Shown piece by piece: positions 10,466-50,071 of a stretch of DNA of 50,071 nucleotides. The notes below the pieces were generated by a model. It saw only the letters and a list, made by a program, of their open reading frames with translations. It was not told the DNA's origin and did no database searches. The stretch comes from Ruminococcus sp. (GTDB lineage Bacteria > Bacillota > Clostridia > Oscillospirales > Acutalibacteraceae). The position numbers and the translations under genes were made by a program. Numbering within the stretch: the stretch's first letter is position 1; each line of letters starts with the position of its first letter. The stretch covers positions 1 to 50,071 of the forward strand of contig JAFNSO010000037.1 of assembly GCA_017384945.1 (NCBI GenBank). Reading direction: 5' to 3'.

Positions 10466-12805
10466 ATGGGCAAGATATTCAAAAACTTTGTACCGTATTG
10501 GAAGTCCGTACTTCTGATAATTTTGCTCTTGATTGTGCAGGCGTACTGCGACCTGGCGCTGCCGCAGTACACCTCCGATATCATAGACACGGGTATCCAG
10601 AACCACGGTGTGTCTCATATTCTCCCCGCGAAAATGACGGCTGACGAATATGAGTACGCCGCGCTGTTTATGACAAAGGAGGAAGCGGAGAGCTTTCACG
10701 GAGCGTACAAAAAGGACGGAGCTCTGTATTCGCGGGTTCAGAACGACGAGGACAAGCTCAAGGCGCTCGACGACGGGCTGATGGTGCCGATAACGGTCGA
10801 CTATTCGATGTCGGCTGTGTCGCTTGACGCCTTTGTAAAGATGGTCGGCGAAAGCGCGGGCGGCTCGGGGCTTGAAGCGAGCGAGGAAAGCGTAAAAGCG
10901 TTCGCGAAAGCGCTCGGTGCGGAGCTCGAGGTTTTCGACAAGGCTGTGGGCGAAGGAAAAACGCAGAAATGCGTCGACGCTCGTCCCGTTTTCCGCGCGC
11001 TCATAAACGGGGTAAAAATCAATACCCCTCAGGGAGAGATCCCGGTTAAAATCGAAAAGGACAAGCTCCTTTCCGCGCGGGATATGTTTAAAAAGCAGAT
11101 GGACGCGCTCGGCAAGGATACCCTCAAAAGCTCGGGAATCGCCTTTGCCGTAAGCTGCGACAAAAAAGCGGGAGTGGACGTAGACGCGGTGCAGACCTCC
11201 TACCTCTGGACGGCGGGGCTGAAAATGCTGCTCGTCGCGCTTGTTCTCACTACTGCCGCGGTGCTGGCGGGACTGCTGGCGGCACGGATAGGCGCGGGCG
11301 TCGGAATGACGCTCAGGAGCCGAGTGTTCAGAAATGTTATCGGCTTTTCAAACAGGGAGATCGACCGCTTTTCGACCGCGTCCCTCATTACAAGAACGAC
11401 AAACGATATCCAGCAGATTCAGATGGTTTCAACCGTTTTGCTCAGAATGGTGCTTTACGCTCCGATTATCGGCGTCGGCGGCGTAATCAAGGTTATGAGC
11501 ACAGGCGCGGGGATGTGGTGGGTAATCGCCCTCGCGGTCGCGGCTATTATGGCGGTTGTCGCTCTTCTGGTCGGCGTTTCAATGCCGAAATTCAAGCTTA
11601 TGCAGAAGCTCGTCGACAGGGTCAACCTTGTGTCGCGCGAGATTCTGACGGGTATTCCCGTTATACGCGCCTTCAAGCGTGAGGAAAGGGAGGAGGAGCG
11701 CTTCGACGAGGCAAACACCGCGCTCACAAAAACCACCCTCTTTACAAACCGCGTAATGACCTTTATGATGCCGATTATGACGGTGATGATGAACCTTGTG
11801 TCGGTGCTTATCGTTTGGGTCGCCTCGTCGCAGATCAACGAGGGCAATATGCAGGTCGGCGAAATGACCGCGTTTATAACATATTCAATGCAAATTATAA
11901 TCAGCTTTTTGATGCTTACGATGATGTCGATTCTGCTTCCGAGAGCGGCGGTCGCCGCGGGAAGAATCGACGAGGTCGTAAAAACCGACTCGTCCGTTAA
12001 GGATAAGGAGGGCTGCGGGGATATTAAGAAGCCCGACGGAGTCGTCGAGTTTAAAAACGTCAGCTTCCGTTATCCCGCCGCCGAGGAGGACGTGCTCAGC
12101 GGTATAAGCTTCACCGCGCGAAAGGGTCAGACCACCGCGATTATCGGCAGTACGGGCAGCGGAAAATCAACGCTCGTCAACCTTATTGTCCGTCTTTACG
12201 ACGTGACCGACGGAAAAATCCTCGTTGACGGCGAGGATATAAGGGAGGTTTCGATGAAATCCCTGCGCGATGAAATCGGCTACGTCCCGCAGAAGGGGAT
12301 TTTGTTCAGCGGCACCGTAGCGTCGAACCTGCGCTTCGGCAACAAGGACGCCTCCGACGATGAAATCAGACGCGCGGCGGAAATCGCTCAGGCGCTTGAG
12401 TTCATCGAGGACAAGCCCGACAAATTTGACAATCCTATCTCTCAGGGAGGAACGAACGTCTCGGGCGGTCAGAAGCAGAGGCTCTCGATCGCCCGAGCGA
12501 TCGCGAAGAATCCAAGGATTTATATTTTCGACGACAGCTTTTCGGCTCTCGATATGAAAACGGACAAGCTCTTGCGCGCCGCGCTCAAAAAAGAGGTCGG
12601 CGACAGCACCGTTATTATCGTAGCTCAGAGAATTTCGACAATTATGGACGCCGAGCAGATTATTATGCTCGACGAGGGCAGAATCGCGGGTATCGGAACT
12701 CACAGAGAGCTTTTGAGAACCTGTGAGCCGTACCTTGAAATCGCGAAATCCCAGCTCTCGGAAAGCGAGCTCGGTCTCGGAGAGGACGGTGAGCTCAATG
12801 GCTGA
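10466..12805 (+). CDS. ABC exporter half-transporter, degenerate-site subunit with a large extracytoplasmic insertion
   Basis: A membrane domain fused to an ATPase domain, one half of a heterodimeric type IV ABC exporter (multidrug or lipid/peptide type). The first helix (about 14-34) is followed by about 200 mostly hydrophilic residues (roughly 45-245) before helix 2, far longer than the usual external loop. The ATPase has Walker A GSTGSGKST (from 561) and signature VSGGQKQR. Walker B reads IYIFDD, so Asp690 replaces the catalytic Glu, and the H-loop His is Gln721 (VAQRIST). Those changes mark the degenerate member of asymmetric pairs such as TM287/288 or BmrCD. I start at the ATG at 10466 with AGGAG 8 bases upstream rather than the in-frame ATG at 10448. 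It overlaps the next gene by 8 bases. The transported substrate is unknown. Confidence 0.93.
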   Translation: MGKIFKNFVPYWKSVLLIILLLIVQAYCDLALPQYTSDIIDTGIQNHGVSHILPAKMTADEYEYAALFMTKEEAESFHGAYKKDGALYSRVQNDEDKLKALDDGLMVPITVDYSMSAVSLDAFVKMVGESAGGSGLEASEESVKAFAKALGAELEVFDKAVGEGKTQKCVDARPVFRALINGVKINTPQGEIPVKIEKDKLLSARDMFKKQMDALGKDTLKSSGIAFAVSCDKKAGVDVDAVQTSYLWTAGLKMLLVALVLTTAAVLAGLLAARIGAGVGMTLRSRVFRNVIGFSNREIDRFSTASLITRTTNDIQQIQMVSTVLLRMVLYAPIIGVGGVIKVMSTGAGMWWVIALAVAAIMAVVALLVGVSMPKFKLMQKLVDRVNLVSREILTGIPVIRAFKREEREEERFDEANTALTKTTLFTNRVMTFMMPIMTVMMNLVSVLIVWVASSQINEGNMQVGEMTAFITYSMQIIISFLMLTMMSILLPRAAVAAGRIDEVVKTDSSVKDKEGCGDIKKPDGVVEFKNVSFRYPAAEEDVLSGISFTARKGQTTAIIGSTGSGKSTLVNLIVRLYDVTDGKILVDGEDIREVSMKSLRDEIGYVPQKGILFSGTVASNLRFGNKDASDDEIRRAAEIAQALEFIEDKPDKFDNPISQGGTNVSGGQKQRLSIARAIAKNPRIYIFDDSFSALDMKTDKLLRAALKKEVGDSTVIIVAQRISTIMDAEQIIMLDEGRIAGIGTHRELLRTCEPYLEIAKSQLSESELGLGEDGELNG

Positions 12806-39700: not shown

Positions 39701-42700
39701 TTATTCAGAATATTCGCTCCAGGCTGCGCCGTCGAATACCATTCCCGTCTTGGGGAAGGTGAGGTCGCCCGTCTGGTCGCCGTTTGTGTTGAAGATCACG
39801 CAGGTCGCTCCGTCGGGAACCTCCGCCTTGTATATGCCGTCCGAGACCTTTTCGGCGTCGGTACCCGGCCAATTCATCATTTCCTTGTTACTTTCCGACC
39901 AGAAGTAAGCGCGAACGCCGTTCCAGTTGGTGTTCTTGAAGTAGACGTACTGCTTCTGAGCCTCTGTCGGCGGCTCGGTCTTGGGAGCCTCAGTTGCCGC
40001 CGCCTGAGTCGCCTGAGTCGCGGGGGTCGTCGCGGCGGGGGTCTTTGAGCCGCCCTTCTTGCCGCAGTTGCCGCACTTGTCAAAGAACAGAGCGGAGTAG
40101 AGCTGTATGCAGGTCGCGTCCTTGACGGAGACGAGGTTGTTTCCGTCGCAGTCAGCCGCCGCGAGTCCCGTTCCCGTCAGATTCGCGAGCAGGGCGATGT
40201 GACGCTGTACGAGTGTCGCGTCCTTGACGTTGATGTTCGAGTCGAGGTTAGCGTCGCCGATAAGGTACTCGCCGCTCACGATCGGAACTCCCGTCGCCTG
40301 AGTCGCCTGCGTCTCCTGAGTAGCCTGCGTCTCCATTTCGTAGTGAGACCAGCTCGAGCCGTTGTACATCTGATTTGACGAGGGGATTTTAATATCGCCC
40401 GTCTTGTTGCCCGCGTTGTCCGAGAAGATACACATATTGTATTCCTTCGGGAAGGTAATCATATAGATGTTGTCCTTGTACTTCTTCATTGAGACGCCCG
40501 GCCACGATACGGGCGAGGAGGTCGTTCCCTCAGTCCAGTAGTAGATCGTCGGGGAGGAGAACTTTGCCGAGGAGTTATCGAAGAAGATTATGTTGACCTT
40601 GTCGGGGTCGGGAGCAGTCGGAGGCGGGGGAGTCTGACCGTTGTACGGCTCCCACTTGTTGTCCGCCATAAATATCATATTCGTCTCGGAAATATCGAGA
40701 CCCTTAGCCATTTCACCCGGGTAACGCTTGCCGCCGCCGTTTTCGCTGAATATTACACAGCCGTTGGTGAGCTCGTCCTCGACCTCGTAGTAGTAGAGGT
40801 TAAGCGAGCTGTCAAGCGTCATCGGCTTGCCCGGCCAGGCTCCGTTTGACTTTGCCTCGCTGCCGCTTTCGTCGTAGATGTAGGCGTTGACGCTCGACCA
40901 GTTGTAGGAGGTGTTGTCAAAGTAGATCCTCGTGACCGCGTTGCGATCCTTCTTTTTGAAGGAGTAGGATTTTTCGAGCTCGTCTGCGCCGTTTTTAGCC
41001 GAGATAACAACGTCAAAAATCGTGCCGTCTTCGATCCCGTCGCCGATTTTGAAGGACTGACCGTTGACTACCTTGAACGGAGCGCCGCCGTTGACGGAAG
41101 CCATCGCCGAGTCCGCGCCGCGGATAGAGAAGGTGACGGTCTGACTGTCGTAGAAGCCGTAGATGCCCGAAAGACTCATATGTATCGAGGACTGGGGACC
41201 CTCAATGAGGATAGTGCCGCAGTCGCCCGAGTTGAATTTTGCCTTGCCGCCCGCGACGGTAGCCTTTGTTCCGTCGTAGACGTTTGTTACGACCGCCTTG
41301 TTGCCCCAGATCGAGGAAACGTTTACTTCGATTTCCTTGTTCTTGGGAGCGCCGATGACCGCGATAACCTCGTCGGTCATTTCGCCGTTGTCATAGGAAC
41401 GTGAGAAGGTGTAGCCTGTTTCGGCGTTGTAAGCGGAAATCTGCTGGTGCTTGCCCGCGCCGATCGCGACGTGCTTTTTGCGGAAGGTGCCGACCTTCTG
41501 CCAGTGAGCGAGCACCTTTTGGTCGATGCTTGACCAGTTCATATCGGAACGGAGCGAGTGACCCGAGCCGCCGTGTCCGTCAAAGCCCATTCCCGCGACG
41601 GTCGGACGGTTTGTCTCGTCGCCGTAGAAGGTCTGGATCGCGCCCGGCATAAGCTGGAACGCCGAGCCCTGATAGATAAGGCTGTCGCTGCTGTCTCTCG
41701 CCGCGAGAGCCGAGTCGTGAGAGGAAATGTATGTGAGAACGTTGTGACCCGCGTCGTTGTTGAGTGCTTCGGCGTAGCCCTGATAGACTCCGTTAATGCT
41801 CGAAACACCCGGAACGCCCGAGCCCGAGAAGCCGAAGTTGATCATTGAGTCAAAGCCGCCCTCGGTGAAGTAGTCGCCGTTGCCGAGGCTCTTGTAGTCC
41901 CAGCATTCGCCCGTCATCCAGAAGTCGTCCTTCCAGTTCGCGCCCGCCTTTGTCGGGTTTTTCTGTCTCCACTGCTTGAGAGCCGCTACGCAGGCGGTCT
42001 TGAGCTTTTTCCAGGAGGCTTTTTCGACGTGCTTTGCGGTATCGCAGCGGAAGCCGTCGACGCCGTAGGTCGAAACCCATTCGGAGAGCCATTTTACGAT
42101 GTAGTTTGAGACAGAGTCGGAGCCGCCGTACTTTGCGGTCTTGGCGCTGAGAGTGCCCTCCTTCTGCCACTTTGTCTTTAGGATCGGGGGAAGCGAGACG
42201 CTCTTGCTCTGCTCGGTTCGGAAGTCGGGCAGACCCGCGAGACAGGAGGTCAGCTCGTCGCCGCCGTCGCCGCCGGTGTAGCCCGCGAGACCCGAGCGGA
42301 TCCAGTCGTTGCCCCACCATTGACCCCAAGCGGAGCCGCCGCCCTCGTAGTCGATGTAGTCGTGCAGGCTGTTGACTCCCGTGAGCTTGTAGACGTAGGA
42401 CTCGGCCTTGCTCTTGTCCTTGAAGGCTCCGAAGTTGTAGGTGAGCATATCCTTGATCGTGTTGTAGCCCGCGTGGTTCATAACGATGTCCATAATAACG
42501 CGGATACCGTGTTTGTGGGCTGTGTCGACCATTGTCTGAAATTCCTGACGCGTACCGAAGTTCAGATCGGGCTCGGTGTAGTCGAGAACGTAGTAGCCGT
42601 GGTAGGAGTAGTGAGAGAAATCCTGAGGCTCGCCCGGGGTAACATAGCCGTGGATCTGCTCGTAAGGAGCCGAAAGCCAGATCGCGTTTGTACCCAGCTT

Positions 42701-43036
42701 GTCAAAATAACCCTCCTCGATTTTCTTTGTGATTCCCGCGAAGTCGCCGCCGTGGAAGGTTCCGGGGTTGCTCTGCCAGCCCGAAAGCGGCGAGCCGCCC
42801 TTGTCGGTGGCGCGGCCGTAGGAATGGTCGTTGGAGGTGTTTCCGTTAAAGAAACGGTCGGTCAGCAAAAAATACACCGACGCGTTGTCCCACGAGAAAT
42901 CGTCGGGATTTTGGAGCTTAATCTTTTGGTTATAGCCTGTGTCTGTCTTTTTGTCGGCCGCCTCAACGGGCACAGCCGAAAAAGCGCAGCATATGCACAG
43001 ACAGATACAAAGCATTACTGCCAATGCTCTTTTCAT
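39701..43036 (-). CDS. Secreted GH13 alpha-amylase with CBM26-like modules and an internal dockerin
   Basis: A 1111-residue extracellular starch-degrading enzyme. The signal peptide (about 1-26) ends VEA. The GH13 barrel (about 50-610) has region I DIVMNH (183-188), region II DGFRCDTAKH with nucleophile D332, region III GECWDY with acid/base E377, and region IV SHDS with D441. Starch-binding CBM26-like modules lie at about 702-800 and 814-900 and at the C-terminus (about 1030-1111), each with the aromatic pattern IYFDN...W....YIY and WPG. A type I dockerin (about 926-985) sits between the second and third modules, with two calcium-loop repeats each ending VKDAT, followed by a CGNCGKKGG cysteine turn. 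I start at ATG 43036 after AAAGGAAG; upstream in-frame codons lie in the promoter region. It is divergent from the plus-strand starch genes. Confidence 0.95.
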   Translation of the reverse strand: MKRALAVMLCICLCICCAFSAVPVEAADKKTDTGYNQKIKLQNPDDFSWDNASVYFLLTDRFFNGNTSNDHSYGRATDKGGSPLSGWQSNPGTFHGGDFAGITKKIEEGYFDKLGTNAIWLSAPYEQIHGYVTPGEPQDFSHYSYHGYYVLDYTEPDLNFGTRQEFQTMVDTAHKHGIRVIMDIVMNHAGYNTIKDMLTYNFGAFKDKSKAESYVYKLTGVNSLHDYIDYEGGGSAWGQWWGNDWIRSGLAGYTGGDGGDELTSCLAGLPDFRTEQSKSVSLPPILKTKWQKEGTLSAKTAKYGGSDSVSNYIVKWLSEWVSTYGVDGFRCDTAKHVEKASWKKLKTACVAALKQWRQKNPTKAGANWKDDFWMTGECWDYKSLGNGDYFTEGGFDSMINFGFSGSGVPGVSSINGVYQGYAEALNNDAGHNVLTYISSHDSALAARDSSDSLIYQGSAFQLMPGAIQTFYGDETNRPTVAGMGFDGHGGSGHSLRSDMNWSSIDQKVLAHWQKVGTFRKKHVAIGAGKHQQISAYNAETGYTFSRSYDNGEMTDEVIAVIGAPKNKEIEVNVSSIWGNKAVVTNVYDGTKATVAGGKAKFNSGDCGTILIEGPQSSIHMSLSGIYGFYDSQTVTFSIRGADSAMASVNGGAPFKVVNGQSFKIGDGIEDGTIFDVVISAKNGADELEKSYSFKKKDRNAVTRIYFDNTSYNWSSVNAYIYDESGSEAKSNGAWPGKPMTLDSSLNLYYYEVEDELTNGCVIFSENGGGKRYPGEMAKGLDISETNMIFMADNKWEPYNGQTPPPPTAPDPDKVNIIFFDNSSAKFSSPTIYYWTEGTTSSPVSWPGVSMKKYKDNIYMITFPKEYNMCIFSDNAGNKTGDIKIPSSNQMYNGSSWSHYEMETQATQETQATQATGVPIVSGEYLIGDANLDSNINVKDATLVQRHIALLANLTGTGLAAADCDGNNLVSVKDATCIQLYSALFFDKCGNCGKKGGSKTPAATTPATQATQAAATEAPKTEPPTEAQKQYVYFKNTNWNGVRAYFWSESNKEMMNWPGTDAEKVSDGIYKAEVPDGATCVIFNTNGDQTGDLTFPKTGMVFDGAAWSEYSE

Positions 43037-43082
43037 TTCAAAACTTCCTTTCAGGCGCGGTTTCAGCCGCGTATTCATTTTC

Positions 43083-43111
43083 ATTATATTGTCCGAGTGA
43101 GATATTTTCAA
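43083..43111 (-). promoter_or_regulatory. Promoter of the minus-strand amylase gene
   Basis: On the minus strand TTGAAA (43106-43111), 17 bases and TATAAT (43083-43088). The leader contains a GCGGCTGAAACCGC hairpin shortly before the ribosome site. No clear catabolite-response element was seen in the 300-bp divergent region. Confidence 0.72.
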
Positions 43112-43273
43112 TACCAAAACTCCATTTGTAATTTTAATCAGCTTTATGCACAAACAGCGACTTGAAAATCTGTGTATTTTAACCTACAAAATTTTTGTGT
43201 CCGATAGTTAAAATTTGTTCACTCCCGAAATTTAAAAAATCAGCGTGGAATTTTACATTTTCTCTATATAATG

Positions 43274-46594: not shown

Positions 46595-49360
46595 ATGCGT
46601 TATATAAGGAAGGGCGCGGTCATTCTGCTTGCGCTGTGCGTGGTGCTCGGCGCTTTTGCGCTCGCGCCCGCGGCAGGCGCGGCGAGTACGATTTATCTCG
46701 ACGCTTCGGCGGTCTCGATCGGCAACGAGGCGTGGTACGTATGGACTTGGGGAGGAGTTACCGACTCGTGGGTCAAGGGTCAGACCGACTCAAAAAGCGG
46801 TTACCTGAAATTCGACAACGTCGGCTCCTACGTGATTTTCGCGCGTATGGACAAAACAAAGTCTCCCTCCTGGGACAGCGGAACCCTCTGGAACAGAACG
46901 GGGGATTTGTACGTCGAGAACAATATGTACGAAATAACGGGCTGGGGCTCGGGCTACGGCGCTGAGCTCCCGGGCTACTGGAAGGAGTACAAGCCCGACT
47001 CCGAGGTCTCGGGAGACCTTCCCGACACCGAAACAGCCAACTATGAGCTTGCGGAAAACATCAACGACGGAATGGTTTTGCAGGCTTGGAACTGGAGCTA
47101 TGCAAACACCTCCGCTATGCTCGAAAAGGTCAAGGCGGCAGGCTTTACGACGATCCAGATTTCGCCCCCGCAGGTGATCTGCGCCGAAACAAAGGGTCAG
47201 CCCGTCAACAGCAAGACGGCAGGCTGGTGGGCTTACTATCAGCCCGCGGCGTTCAGGCTCAACGACCTCGAGGACAACGCCCTCGGCACAAAGCGCGAGC
47301 TCTTCACCCTTATCGCGAGAGCTCACCAGATGGGAATAAAAATCATCGCGGACGCGGTAATCAACCACGTCGGCGGCAACGAATACAAAAACTACAGCGA
47401 CACAAACCCCTTAAACCACGTCAACGACAGGGTCAAGTACTACGAGCCCGAGCTCTGCTCGAGCACAAACTACTTCCACACCCCTTGGGTGAGTATGAGC
47501 TACAAGGAGCGTTACAGCGACGGCTACTCCGACTACGACATCGAGCAGGATTTAACCCAGCACGCTCAGTCAAATCTCCCCGACCTGAACACCGCTCACC
47601 CATATGTTCAGGACAAGATCTACACCTACCTCAAGGAGCTCGTTGACGCGGGTATCGACGGCTTCCGCGTTGACGCGGCGAAGCATATCGAGACCCCGTC
47701 CGACACCTACTTCAAGTCGGATTTCCTGCCGAACACCCTCGGCAAGGTCACCAAATACGCAAAATCAACGTACAACAAGGACCTTCTCTGCTACGGCGAG
47801 ATCATCGGCGCCTGCGGCGACGGCAGAAGCTGCGACGAGTACACTCCGTTTATGAAGGTCAGCGACACGGGAATGTACTGGGACATCGCGGGCAACGTCC
47901 ACGGCGGCGACGCGGCGAAGGTCATCCCGATGAACACCTACTTTACCTCAAAGTCAAAGTCCGTCCTCTGGAACGAGAGCCACGACTCATTCTGTGACGG
48001 CTCGACCACCGACTGCTCCGAGGTCGAGCTCAACAAGCGCTGGGCGGCGTGCGCCGCGCGCGATACAATAACCGCGATGTACTTCGCCCGTCCGAACAAA
48101 ATGACTCAGGAGCTCGGAGTCGCGAGCGAAAGCTACTGGGCTAACTGGTCGGTCAGAGAGGTAAACAACTTCTCGAACATCTTCGCGGGTCAGGGCGAGT
48201 ACCTCTCCCACGGCTCGAACGTTGCCGTGATAGGCAGAGGTCAGAAGTCGAACAACGGCGGCGCTGTGCTTATAAACTGCGACTTCGGAACGACAAAGAG
48301 CGTCTCCGACGTTCCCGTCTACACCCTCAGAGACGGCGCCTACCACGACCGGATCTCGGGCAACACCTTCACCGTAAAGAGCGGCAGGCTCTCGGGCAAA
48401 ATCGGCGACACGGGAATCGCCGTTCTGTACAAAGACCAGCTCCCCGTCGTTTATGCCGACGAAAGCCGCAGATATTACGACGACAGCGTAAGCGTCACCG
48501 TCAACTCAAAGCGCGCCGACCGCTCGACCTACGAGTACAACGGCGGCGAGCCCGTCGAGTTCTCGGGAAGCAAGGCGATAACCCTCGGAAGCGCGTCCGA
48601 CCAAATCGGCGCGACCTACAAGCTGACCGTCAAGGGCTACCTGAAAGGCAAGCTTGCCGCCGAGGAGACCTACGAGTACACAAAGGACGTCCCCGACGAA
48701 AAGCTCGAGATAACGCTCGACACCAACTCGGTTTCGGGCTGGAGCTCGAATCCGAGCATTTACGCGTGGAACAGCGTTACCCAGACTCCGCTTAGCTCGT
48801 GGCCGGGGATAAAAATGAACGGAAGCTCGGGAAAATACACCTTCTCACTCGACAGAGACTACGACAGGATAATATTCAGCTCGGGCTCGGCTCAGACCGT
48901 GGACATCCCCGTTTTTGACAGCTCGGATTTTATAATTCAGGGAACAAAAGCTCAGAACAGCGGCGGCACCGAGTGCAACAACGTCAAGCGGAACCTCAGT
49001 CTCTACAAGGGACAAAAATACTACCCGGGTCTCGACGAGCCCCCGACAACAACGGAGCCTACAACGGAACCTGTGACAACATCAGAGCCGACGGAGCCGA
49101 CAACGGAGCCCACGGAGCCTGTGACAACATCAGAGCCGACGGAACCGACGACGGAGAAGCCGTCTGTAAAGGGCGACGTTAACGGCGACGGGATTTTCGA
49201 TGTAAGAGACGTGACGATGATAAAACGTTACGTCGTAAAGCTCATAACCTTCACAGAAGAGCAAATCCGCATAGCCGACGTGAACCGCGACGGAGCGATC
49301 GACGTCCGCGACGCGACGAAAATGCAGAGAATCATCGCCAAGATAGATACGTTCGACTAA
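46595..49360 (+). CDS. Secreted GH13 alpha-amylase with C-terminal dockerin
   Basis: A 921-residue extracellular amylase. The signal peptide (about 1-29) ends AGA. An N-terminal beta module (about 31-135, YVWTWGG and W.SGTLWN) looks starch-binding. The GH13 barrel (about 155-560) has region I DAVINH (253-258), region II DGFRVDAAKH with nucleophile D360, region III YGEIIG with acid/base E402, and region IV ESHDS with D464. A CBM26-like module follows (about 710-790, SIYAWN...LSSWPG), then a Thr/Pro/Glu linker and a type I dockerin (about 859-921) with two calcium loops, each followed by VRD.T. RBS GGGAGGAG precedes the ATG. It is the second gene after 43337-46558. The dockerin implies assembly on a cohesin protein encoded elsewhere. 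Confidence 0.95.
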   Translation: MRYIRKGAVILLALCVVLGAFALAPAAGAASTIYLDASAVSIGNEAWYVWTWGGVTDSWVKGQTDSKSGYLKFDNVGSYVIFARMDKTKSPSWDSGTLWNRTGDLYVENNMYEITGWGSGYGAELPGYWKEYKPDSEVSGDLPDTETANYELAENINDGMVLQAWNWSYANTSAMLEKVKAAGFTTIQISPPQVICAETKGQPVNSKTAGWWAYYQPAAFRLNDLEDNALGTKRELFTLIARAHQMGIKIIADAVINHVGGNEYKNYSDTNPLNHVNDRVKYYEPELCSSTNYFHTPWVSMSYKERYSDGYSDYDIEQDLTQHAQSNLPDLNTAHPYVQDKIYTYLKELVDAGIDGFRVDAAKHIETPSDTYFKSDFLPNTLGKVTKYAKSTYNKDLLCYGEIIGACGDGRSCDEYTPFMKVSDTGMYWDIAGNVHGGDAAKVIPMNTYFTSKSKSVLWNESHDSFCDGSTTDCSEVELNKRWAACAARDTITAMYFARPNKMTQELGVASESYWANWSVREVNNFSNIFAGQGEYLSHGSNVAVIGRGQKSNNGGAVLINCDFGTTKSVSDVPVYTLRDGAYHDRISGNTFTVKSGRLSGKIGDTGIAVLYKDQLPVVYADESRRYYDDSVSVTVNSKRADRSTYEYNGGEPVEFSGSKAITLGSASDQIGATYKLTVKGYLKGKLAAEETYEYTKDVPDEKLEITLDTNSVSGWSSNPSIYAWNSVTQTPLSSWPGIKMNGSSGKYTFSLDRDYDRIIFSSGSAQTVDIPVFDSSDFIIQGTKAQNSGGTECNNVKRNLSLYKGQKYYPGLDEPPTTTEPTTEPVTTSEPTEPTTEPTEPVTTSEPTEPTTEKPSVKGDVNGDGIFDVRDVTMIKRYVVKLITFTEEQIRIADVNRDGAIDVRDATKMQRIIAKIDTFD

Positions 49361-49372
49361 ACGAAACGCAAT

Positions 49373-49420
49373 AAACGGGATTGACCCAAAGCTCAGACGA
49401 GCGGGAGTCAATCCCGTTTT
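49373..49420 (+). terminator. Terminator of the plus-strand starch locus
   Basis: A perfect 13-bp stem (49373-49385 with 49407-49419) has a 21-base loop and is followed by TTTTATGTTTT. Confidence 0.85.
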
Positions 49421-49445
49421 ATGTTTTACATATCCTGTTTCCAAA

Positions 49446-49534
49446 ATGTTGCCGATGTTGCCGCGAGATGCAGCCCTTCTCAAAAACGCTTTCTTTTTAG
49501 GAACCGATGTTTTTATCGGCAACATCGGCAACAT
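49446..49534. repeat. Hairpin unit A of the right-end array
   Basis: A perfect 18-bp inverted repeat. The left arm is two tandem copies of ATGTTGCCG (49446-49463); the right arm is its exact complement (49517-49534). The 53-base middle resembles the core of units B-D (AGCCCTTCT and GGAACCGATGTTTTT). Confidence 0.9.
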
Positions 49535-49597
49535 ATTAATATACACATAATATACAATATATAATAACTGTGTTTATATATAAAAATATCAATATAA

Positions 49598-49710
49598 AGC
49601 TTGTTGCAGGTGGAGCAGGTAAATGTAGCCCTTCTTAAAATCACTTCTTTTTAAGGAACCGATGTTTTTACCTGCTCCATCTGCTCCATAATAAATTCTC
49701 ACACTTTTTG
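49598..49710. repeat. Hairpin unit B (113-bp tandem unit)
   Basis: The left arm (49601-49623) and right arm (49667-49689) pair over 19 of 23 positions. The heptamer GGAGCAG occurs once in the left arm and twice, inverted, in the right. The outermost left copy is GTTGCAG. The core contains CCTT...AAGG, a second inner stem. Confidence 0.9.
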
Positions 49711-49823
49711 AGCTTGTTGCAGGTGGAGCAGGTAAATGCAGTCCTTCTTAAAATCACTTCTTTTTAAGGAACCTATGTTTTTACCTGCTCCATCTGCTCC
49801 ATAATAAATTCTCACACTTTTTG
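49711..49823. repeat. Hairpin unit C (113-bp tandem unit)
   Basis: Nearly identical to unit B, with arms at 49714-49736 and 49780-49802. It differs mainly at two or three core positions (GCAGTCC for GTAGCCC, CCTATG for CCGATG). Confidence 0.9.
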
Positions 49824-49936
49824 AGCTTGTAGCAGTTGTAGCAGGTAAATGTAGCCCTTTTCAAAATCACTTCTTTTTAAGGAACCTATGTTTTTACCTG
49901 CTACATCTGCTACATAATAATTTCTCACACTTAATT
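49824..49936. repeat. Hairpin unit D (113-bp tandem unit with switched arm sequence)
   Basis: Same spacing and core as B and C, with arms at 49827-49849 and 49893-49915. All four arm heptamers are GTAGCAG instead of GGAGCAG, so the arms still pair (21 of 23). Confidence 0.9.
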
Positions 49937-50071
49937 AATATCTACTGAACAACCCCCAATTTCAAACTGCGGATAATCAGCCATAACATCTCCGCCCTCA
50001 ACTTCTCAATCTTCCTCAGATTTAGAAGCAAGACGGACATAGCAATGCTGTGGCAAGTCGTTTCTTTTAGC
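49937..50071 (-). other. Right-edge segment with a possible partial minus-strand gene end
   Basis: No complete gene. On the minus strand the edge frame reads KRNDLPQHCYVRLASKSEED and stops at 50006, and the same frame then continues VMADYPQFEIGGCSVDIN to a second stop. An alternative frame is open from the edge to 49942 (LRKIEKLRAEMLWLIIRS). Either could be the 3' end of a gene lying to the right; neither is recognisable. Confidence 0.3.

Follow-up and report, generated by a model that had tools for sequence, protein, structure and literature searches.

A contig of Ruminococcus sp. (JAFNSO010000037.1, assembly GCA_017384945.1), of which positions 1 to 50,071 form the stretch analysed here (the window), ends in an array of four hairpins whose arms differ from copy to copy, and this raises the question of what such hairpins are and how they came to stand on a chromosome. 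Comparison with related loci indicates that each is very probably a copy of the origin from which a mobile element (a phage, satellite or plasmid) replicates with a P4-family primase-helicase. Its predicted identity as an origin of the kind found in phage-inducible chromosomal islands (PICIs) and the plasmid pRN1 is well supported by its place, anatomy and link to primase residues. The window copies are best read as displaced, orphan chromosomal origins of P4-type replicons; they are not called working origins, since they lack their primase.

The four hairpins are 87 nt long each and together span 49447-49914 (Table 1). Two 7-bp repeats of the TGNNGCA type, with starts 9 bp apart, make up the 5' arm, two inverted repeats make up the 3' arm, and an AT-rich core lies between them. 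A sequence-only reading of the window had proposed three exact 113-bp units and one diverged upstream unit, each forming a long hairpin, and this was borne out: the upstream copy (49443-49555) shows 65% identity, and the plus strands of all four fold with z-scores of -6.8 to -8.7 relative to dinucleotide shuffles, with none of 200 shuffles as good. The minus strands that were folded (units 1 and 4) gave z-scores of -5.0 and -5.6. The description of the arms as 9-mers facing their complements needs one correction: the outer 9-mers of units 2 and 3 are mismatched (5' TGTTGCAGG versus TGGAGCAGA, the latter being the complement of the 3' arm), and the two arms are thus not fully complementary. Nor are the units merely assembly duplicates, as relatives carry units at many loci.

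Covariation was assessed over a 22-bp stem in 23 copies, chosen from those known at that stage. Paired bases occupy 90.5% of the stem cells and the covariation score of 0.208 compares with 0.078 (sd 0.011) for shuffles, in agreement with the claim that the arms change together. Two-sided changes were found in seven pairs, all at repeat positions (columns 1, 3, 4, 7, 12, 13 and 16), and none in the spacer columns 8, 9, 17 and 18. Among 53 copies from the genus, a count which excludes five degenerate or other-type copies (L308, L309, L311, L312 and L313), 702 of 742 repeat cells are complementary as against 128 of 212 cells in the 2-nt spacers between repeats. Mirror repeat pairs agree at the variable dinucleotide in 86 of 106 cases, and this dinucleotide is uniform over all four words in 32 of the 53 copies. 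The restriction of matching to the repeats weakens the earlier proposal that base pairing itself is maintained and suggests that the constraint acts on one short word present four times, twice inverted, rather than on stem pairing, a pattern which would fit iterons bound by a protein and arranged in inverted orientation better than an RNA held together by base pairs. Uncompensated arm changes, which had been named in advance as a sign against covariation, do occur, but as a minority (e.g. L319, L298 and L293). A CRISPR (clustered regularly interspaced short palindromic repeats) array, with a constant repeat and unique spacers, does not fit, as anticipated from the sequence: in the window the repeated part varies and the 26-bp spacer is nearly constant, although no search was aimed at cas genes. 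Repetitive extragenic palindromic (REP) elements are constant palindromes with a GTAG or GGAG foot, accompanied by a RAYT gene in the genome; the hairpin arms here, by contrast, are not constant.

Hairpins of this kind are also found beside P4-family primase genes. Four further copies are present in the genome of the window (89% complete), on contigs C93 (two), C54 and C20, together with a single TIGR01613 match, an 818-aa primase on contig C20 with the Pfam domains D5_N, Pox_D5 and DUF5906 and a profile match to the DNA primase of PDB entry 7ola (E 1.1e-19). The C20 hairpin begins 6 nt past the primase stop codon, and the identity between its core and the core of window unit 4 is 0.96; the remainder of this 11-kb contig includes a resolvase domain and, by eye, an integrase-like open reading frame (ORF) at the contig end. 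Plasmid pPM400 of Bacillus badius shows the same arrangement of gene and hairpin, the gene being annotated as 'phage/plasmid primase, P4 family'. In 12 loci (L040, L286, L230, L232, L234, L235, L236, L238, L215, L321, L157 and L311) the hairpin lies 4-28 nt past the stop codon; in L233 it overlaps the end of the primase gene, and in L323 its distance from the stop is 139 nt. Gene-end hairpins occur in ten of 17 fetched viral primase loci (L230 and L231, which are the same sequence, L232-L236, L238, L239 and L240 (= L404; by eye)), and viral contig L385 carries the exact unit 1 repeat (17-mer) in both arms, 13 nt past the primase stop. The repeats are of the GGTGGCGCA type in the distant loci L241-L243 and of the TGGGAGGG type in L244 (by eye); no hairpin was seen by eye in L246, and L245 contains the front part of the primase gene only. 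A wider viral scan covered the best 80 of 106 loci; judged by the last 200 residues, 63 of these are distinct. Of the 63, 26 have an inverted repeat matching at 17/20 or more near the stop, as against none of 63 control windows of those loci, and with a limit of 16/20 the counts are 34 as against two. The suggested HUH nuclease site is disfavoured, in that the linked gene codes for a P4-family primase (D5_N/Pox_D5), although no search was aimed at HUH genes. Two tandem origin hairpins (11421-11503 and 11562-11644) lie 3' of the primase gene on viral contig L157, so that doubling occurs in elements too. In genome G156 (L311:4047-4952, minus strand) a primase ORF apparently lacks the middle of the gene, yet a TGTAGAC-repeat hairpin follows it.

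Origins of this type are known. PICIs as elements are marked by int and xis genes, a pair of regulators and phage-dependent induction. According to the sections consulted of the papers cited here, PICI origins are located directly 3' of the initiator gene and comprise two iteron sets around an AT-rich region (PMC6092414). The Rep protein of Staphylococcus aureus pathogenicity islands (SaPIs) reads iterons through its C-terminal domain, and the isolated C-terminal domain of Cch2 binds its putative origin (PMC7581432), while SaPI5 Rep-type initiators have a Primase_Cterm/D5 domain (PMC6092414, PMC7581432). The element copies resemble these in their place in the 12 loci listed above, in the shared Primase_Cterm/D5 domain and in an AT-rich core flanked on either side by a pair of 7-bp repeats. 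They differ in the number and spacing of the iterons, two of 7 bp per side with a 9-10 bp period, and in the near-perfect hairpin; further, the window copies form an orphan array, so that a place immediately 3' of a primase-helicase gene is seen for the element copies and not for the four in the window. In the Sulfolobus plasmid pRN1, a 100-nt stem-loop after the primase-helicase gene is sufficient together with the replication operon. The stem is 21 nt and the loop 58 nt at 75 C, the gene combines primase, SF3 helicase and winged-helix parts, and an origin of this type has also been proposed for phage BIP-1, and among such origins the stem-loop diverges in sequence and retains its structure (PMC4234260). 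A D5/SF3 primase-helicase gene followed by a stem-loop of about 100 nt, with a diverging stem and a kept structure, is likewise seen for the element copies and for the family overall, whereas the window copies stand without the gene. In the present family, in addition, arm variation falls at the repeats and some copies have no primase gene nearby, and the consulted sections on pRN1 name no iteron code.

The variable dinucleotide of the repeats is associated with two residues of the primase. Of 66 distinct primases, 49 could be paired with a TGNNGC repeat type and were compared over 340 alignment columns, numbered as in the C20 protein. For the second variable base, residue 804 is by far the most informative column, closely followed by residue 803, with corrected uncertainties of 0.65 and 0.62, the next column reaching 0.28. 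Twelve of the labels were set by hand from hairpins while the protein tails were visible; when the comparison was restricted to automatic labels (45 pairs, without L402), 804 and 803 remained at the top with 0.63 and 0.59 against 0.27. Locus L402 is a short frameshifted row with artefactually high identities and is included in the 49 pairs and in the dipeptide pair counts. Lysine 804 coincides with G as the second base in 16 of 16 cases, S803-E804 with TC in eight of eight, S803-Q804 with TC in three of three and G803 with TA in 13 of 13. On a tree of the helicase part, the second base changes 18 times, compared with a mean of 24.6 for shuffled labels (minimum 20 of 200), and thus shows some clustering by descent, yet many switches. 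The helicases of L398 and L391, for example, are 94% identical, with AK accompanied by GG in one and SQ by TC in the other, while L356 and L357 (90% identical) combine SE with TC and AL with TA; in both pairs dipeptide and repeat type have switched together. Between primases less than 65% identical, the same base is found in 47 of 49 pairs with the same dipeptide and in 159 of 702 with a different one (faulty row L402 included). Both residues fall inside the Pox_D5 match (737-811), which we take to be a winged-helix domain with residues 803 and 804 in its wing. The earlier suggestion that the hairpins are recognition sites of one family whose specificity can be switched is supported, and they probably function as DNA where replication starts or proceeds.

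Several observations count against this interpretation. The 17 primases left out of the comparison comprise seven with other or mixed repeats (e.g. TGCGCA, TGGGGAC and TGTTAATCA), one with its hairpin elsewhere and nine with none in the stretch searched. Near-identical proteins are present among the 49 pairs (e.g. L350, L351, L377 and L215), for which the other alignment columns, sharing the same descent, serve as a control. The code is ambiguous for alanine 804, found with TA (six) or TT (three), and for Q804, found with TC (three) or TG (one, E803-Q804), and has an exception in E804 with TA (once, N803-E804). The place of the two residues in the fold is a prediction from the Pox_D5 match. 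As to location, the hairpin of L237 stands upstream of the primase gene, at a distance of about 1.2 kb, and 29 of the 63 viral loci have no 16/20 inverted repeat near the stop, although some have shorter arms or repeats by eye.

A mechanism can be proposed for such origins. The C-terminal domain (Pfam Pox_D5) of the primase-helicase would bind the iterons on both sides, two helicase rings would load head to head and the AT-rich core would melt. Variation of the arms may reflect elements switching their iteron type together with residues 803 and 804, which would read the variable dinucleotide, and recombination may take place among the orphan origins and perhaps also between them and origins that arrive with new elements.

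Within the genus, a covariance model built on 23 chosen copies detected the family in 26 of 150 genomes, the present one included, and outside it in three of 294 other genomes of an order sample; in two of these (G401 and G350) the hairpin lies 3' of a primase gene, and in the third (G182) no primase occurs within the 6 kb fetched. Among public records with the full hairpin, many are titled Ruminococcus sp. or Clostridiales. The exact core pattern had no match in the genome and viral collections. A 3'-arm pattern returned 88 and 68 stretches, reduced by a 5'-arm filter to 25 places, two of which (L162 and L187) were judged by eye to be chance matches. DNA searches of phage and plasmid collections gave one weak match each, the Bacillus badius plasmid match leading to the primase. 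A survey of 71 chosen sources yielded 142 matches, or 75 places after removal of strand doubles, of which 19 have a linked primase relative and 56, one of them from another genus (L322), have none in the fetched stretch.

No primase trace was found within 500 nt on either side of these 56 copies, those in the window included, and an origin as remnants of eroded elements was rejected on this basis; the same search recovered 13 of the 19 primase-linked copies, missing five called on the opposite strand and L237. Only one of the 53 genus hairpins (two of which are primase-linked) overlaps an ORF of at least 150 aa, as against 44 of 53 random segments. There is no flank common to the family when seven orthologous or duplicate copies are left out, which makes a fixed-end transposon such as a MITE (miniature inverted-repeat transposable element), with its fixed ends and target duplication, less likely. 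Some pairs or groups within one genome do share flanks (L289/L290, 126 nt downstream; L300/L301/L304, 67-144 nt upstream; L301/L303, 30 nt downstream). In genome G150, several orphan hairpins have a GC-rich dispersed repeat next to them (upstream flanks of L300, L301 and L304). At the C93 site, the hairpin is lacking in 19 fetched relatives of a flanking gene (50 other genomes matched). Between gltD and pyrG, the hairpins of two species, G020 and G451, differ at one of 87 positions, with the flanking gene pieces 75% and 84% identical; 12 of 15 measurable genomes (30 fetched) have a gap of 14-67 nt without a hairpin there, and no target duplication is clear by eye. At the same place G083 (L431) carries a different array, with TTGTCCC words on a 9-bp period. 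Loci L291 and L298 share 97% identity over 1930 bases, yet the hairpin core and 3' arm have been replaced, and L319, L298 and L293 are hybrids with arms of two types. Together with the gltD-pyrG pattern, these replacements and hybrids suggest recombination between origins and perhaps selection at some sites.

Other explanations concern both the hairpins and their orphan state. A structured or processed RNA, favoured by the strong predicted folding, is highly improbable: the minus strands tested also fold, covariation is confined to the repeat positions, and Rfam gave no match above the gathering cut-off in the window. Templating of one arm by the other during replication, without any selection for binding, could produce concerted change of the repeats with little change of the core, as in window units 3 and 4 and in the two C93 copies, whose cores are identical and repeats different. 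It is nevertheless very unlikely, as spacer bases in the same stem are poorly matched and the repeats track primase residues across elements. As to how orphan origins come to be present, the reading with a slightly better than even chance is that they are by-products with no activity of their own, origin fragments which the chromosome acquired from elements and which were sometimes duplicated in tandem; their types would be snapshots of iteron-switching element lineages. The intergenic placing, the absence of primase traces and of a family-wide flank, the patchy distribution, the sites lacking a hairpin in other genomes, and the hybrid and degenerate copies are consistent with this. Less easily accommodated are the repeats that remain matched while spacers and cores drift, the C93 pair, which plain duplication would not give, and the gltD-pyrG copy, which is more conserved than its flanks. 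Recombination or attachment sites, at which elements would enter by crossover between their own origin and a chromosomal copy, are an unlikely alternative suggested by the L291/L298 replacement, the two-type hybrids and the first unit of G012, a mosaic relative to G017 (by eye); no element was, however, found between two hybrid hairpins in the fetched stretches (mostly about 8 kb or less), and the hairpins of elements sit at the primase gene.

The orphans could alternatively be decoys kept by the host, in which case each orphan of another iteron type would lure the primase-helicase of one class of invader from its proper origin, or would let it fire there and so abort the infection. A precedent is 'phage-encoded resistance' (PER), in which, according to the part of the report consulted, extra copies of a phage origin protect dairy bacteria in a copy-number dependent manner (PMC6356513). 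An origin outside the active element could similarly draw replication proteins here, although PER as described there involves a 302-bp phage region rather than natural, short orphan arrays of mixed repeat types. In G017, which lacks a TIGR01613 match, the five hairpins are all of different type, and among copies with cores at least 0.85 identical the repeats agree less within genomes (0.34, 38 pairs) than between them (0.68, 48 pairs). The intergenic placing and the conserved gltD-pyrG copy point the same way, although high identity at a single locus may stem from transfer or conversion. Removal of the genome of the window, however, brings the within-genome figure to 0.59 (14 pairs), close to that found between genomes. 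Overall, core likeness within genomes is 0.83 (74 pairs) and repeat-type likeness 0.264 within compared with 0.262 between genomes (1274 pairs). Adjacent copies are of unlike type in 14 of 15 pairs, two of which represent one ancestral pair (G012 and G017), but this is within chance, random pairs differing in 83% of draws (P = 0.25). Moreover, five of the six copies in G150 are of one type, like pairs occur in G020 and G095, L308, L309, L312 and L313 are degenerate, and no hairpins were found in 124 of the 150 genus genomes. Decoys are hence regarded as improbable, and still more doubtful is the fuller proposal that rumen Ruminococcus keep iteron-diversified arrays of decoy origins as a heritable repertoire against P4-type elements, which would escape by switching the two residues and the iterons.

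Table 1. Features of the hairpin array at the end of the window.
Feature	Position	Strand	Description
Candidate orphan origin, hairpin 1	49447..49533	+	four TGTTGCC-type repeats: 49447-49453, 49456-49462; inverted 49518-49524, 49527-49533
Candidate orphan origin, hairpin 2	49602..49688	+	5' repeats TT/GA, 3' repeats GA/GA
Candidate orphan origin, hairpin 3	49715..49801	+	repeats TT/GA (5'), GA/GA (3')
Candidate orphan origin, hairpin 4	49828..49914	+	TGTAGCA in all four repeats
Three 113-bp tandem units	49598..49936	+	49598-49710, 49711-49823, 49824-49936; each a hairpin and a nearly constant spacer of about 26 bp
Repeat end, probably of an insertion sequence	49931..50071		array and contig both stop there; five copies in the genome

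The array lies 3' of a dockerin-bearing alpha-amylase gene (46595-49360), from which it is separated by an inverted repeat (49373-49419) resembling a terminator. Two amylase genes are present in the window (39701-43153 and 46595-49360), the second with a CBM26 starch-binding module besides the dockerin. The 141 bases of the repeat at the contig end recur on contigs C57, C14, C13 and C58 at 99-100% identity, and all five copies are at the contig end itself or at most 3 bases away, so that this is probably the end of an insertion sequence that broke the assembly. With the repeat starting at 49931, the array may run on past the contig. The insertion sequence was rejected as a carrier of the hairpins, as it merely abuts the array.

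While the origin type is already known, narrow literature searches, which are no proof of absence, turned up neither arrays of orphan origins like these nor a code of two residues, and both appear new to that extent. If the two-residue code holds, the origin specificity of many phages, satellites and plasmids, and hence their compatibility and competition, would be readable from sequence. Orphan origin arrays of mixed type would constitute a little-known chromosomal feature, which either records past origin switching, much as fossils do, or provides immunity of a simple kind.
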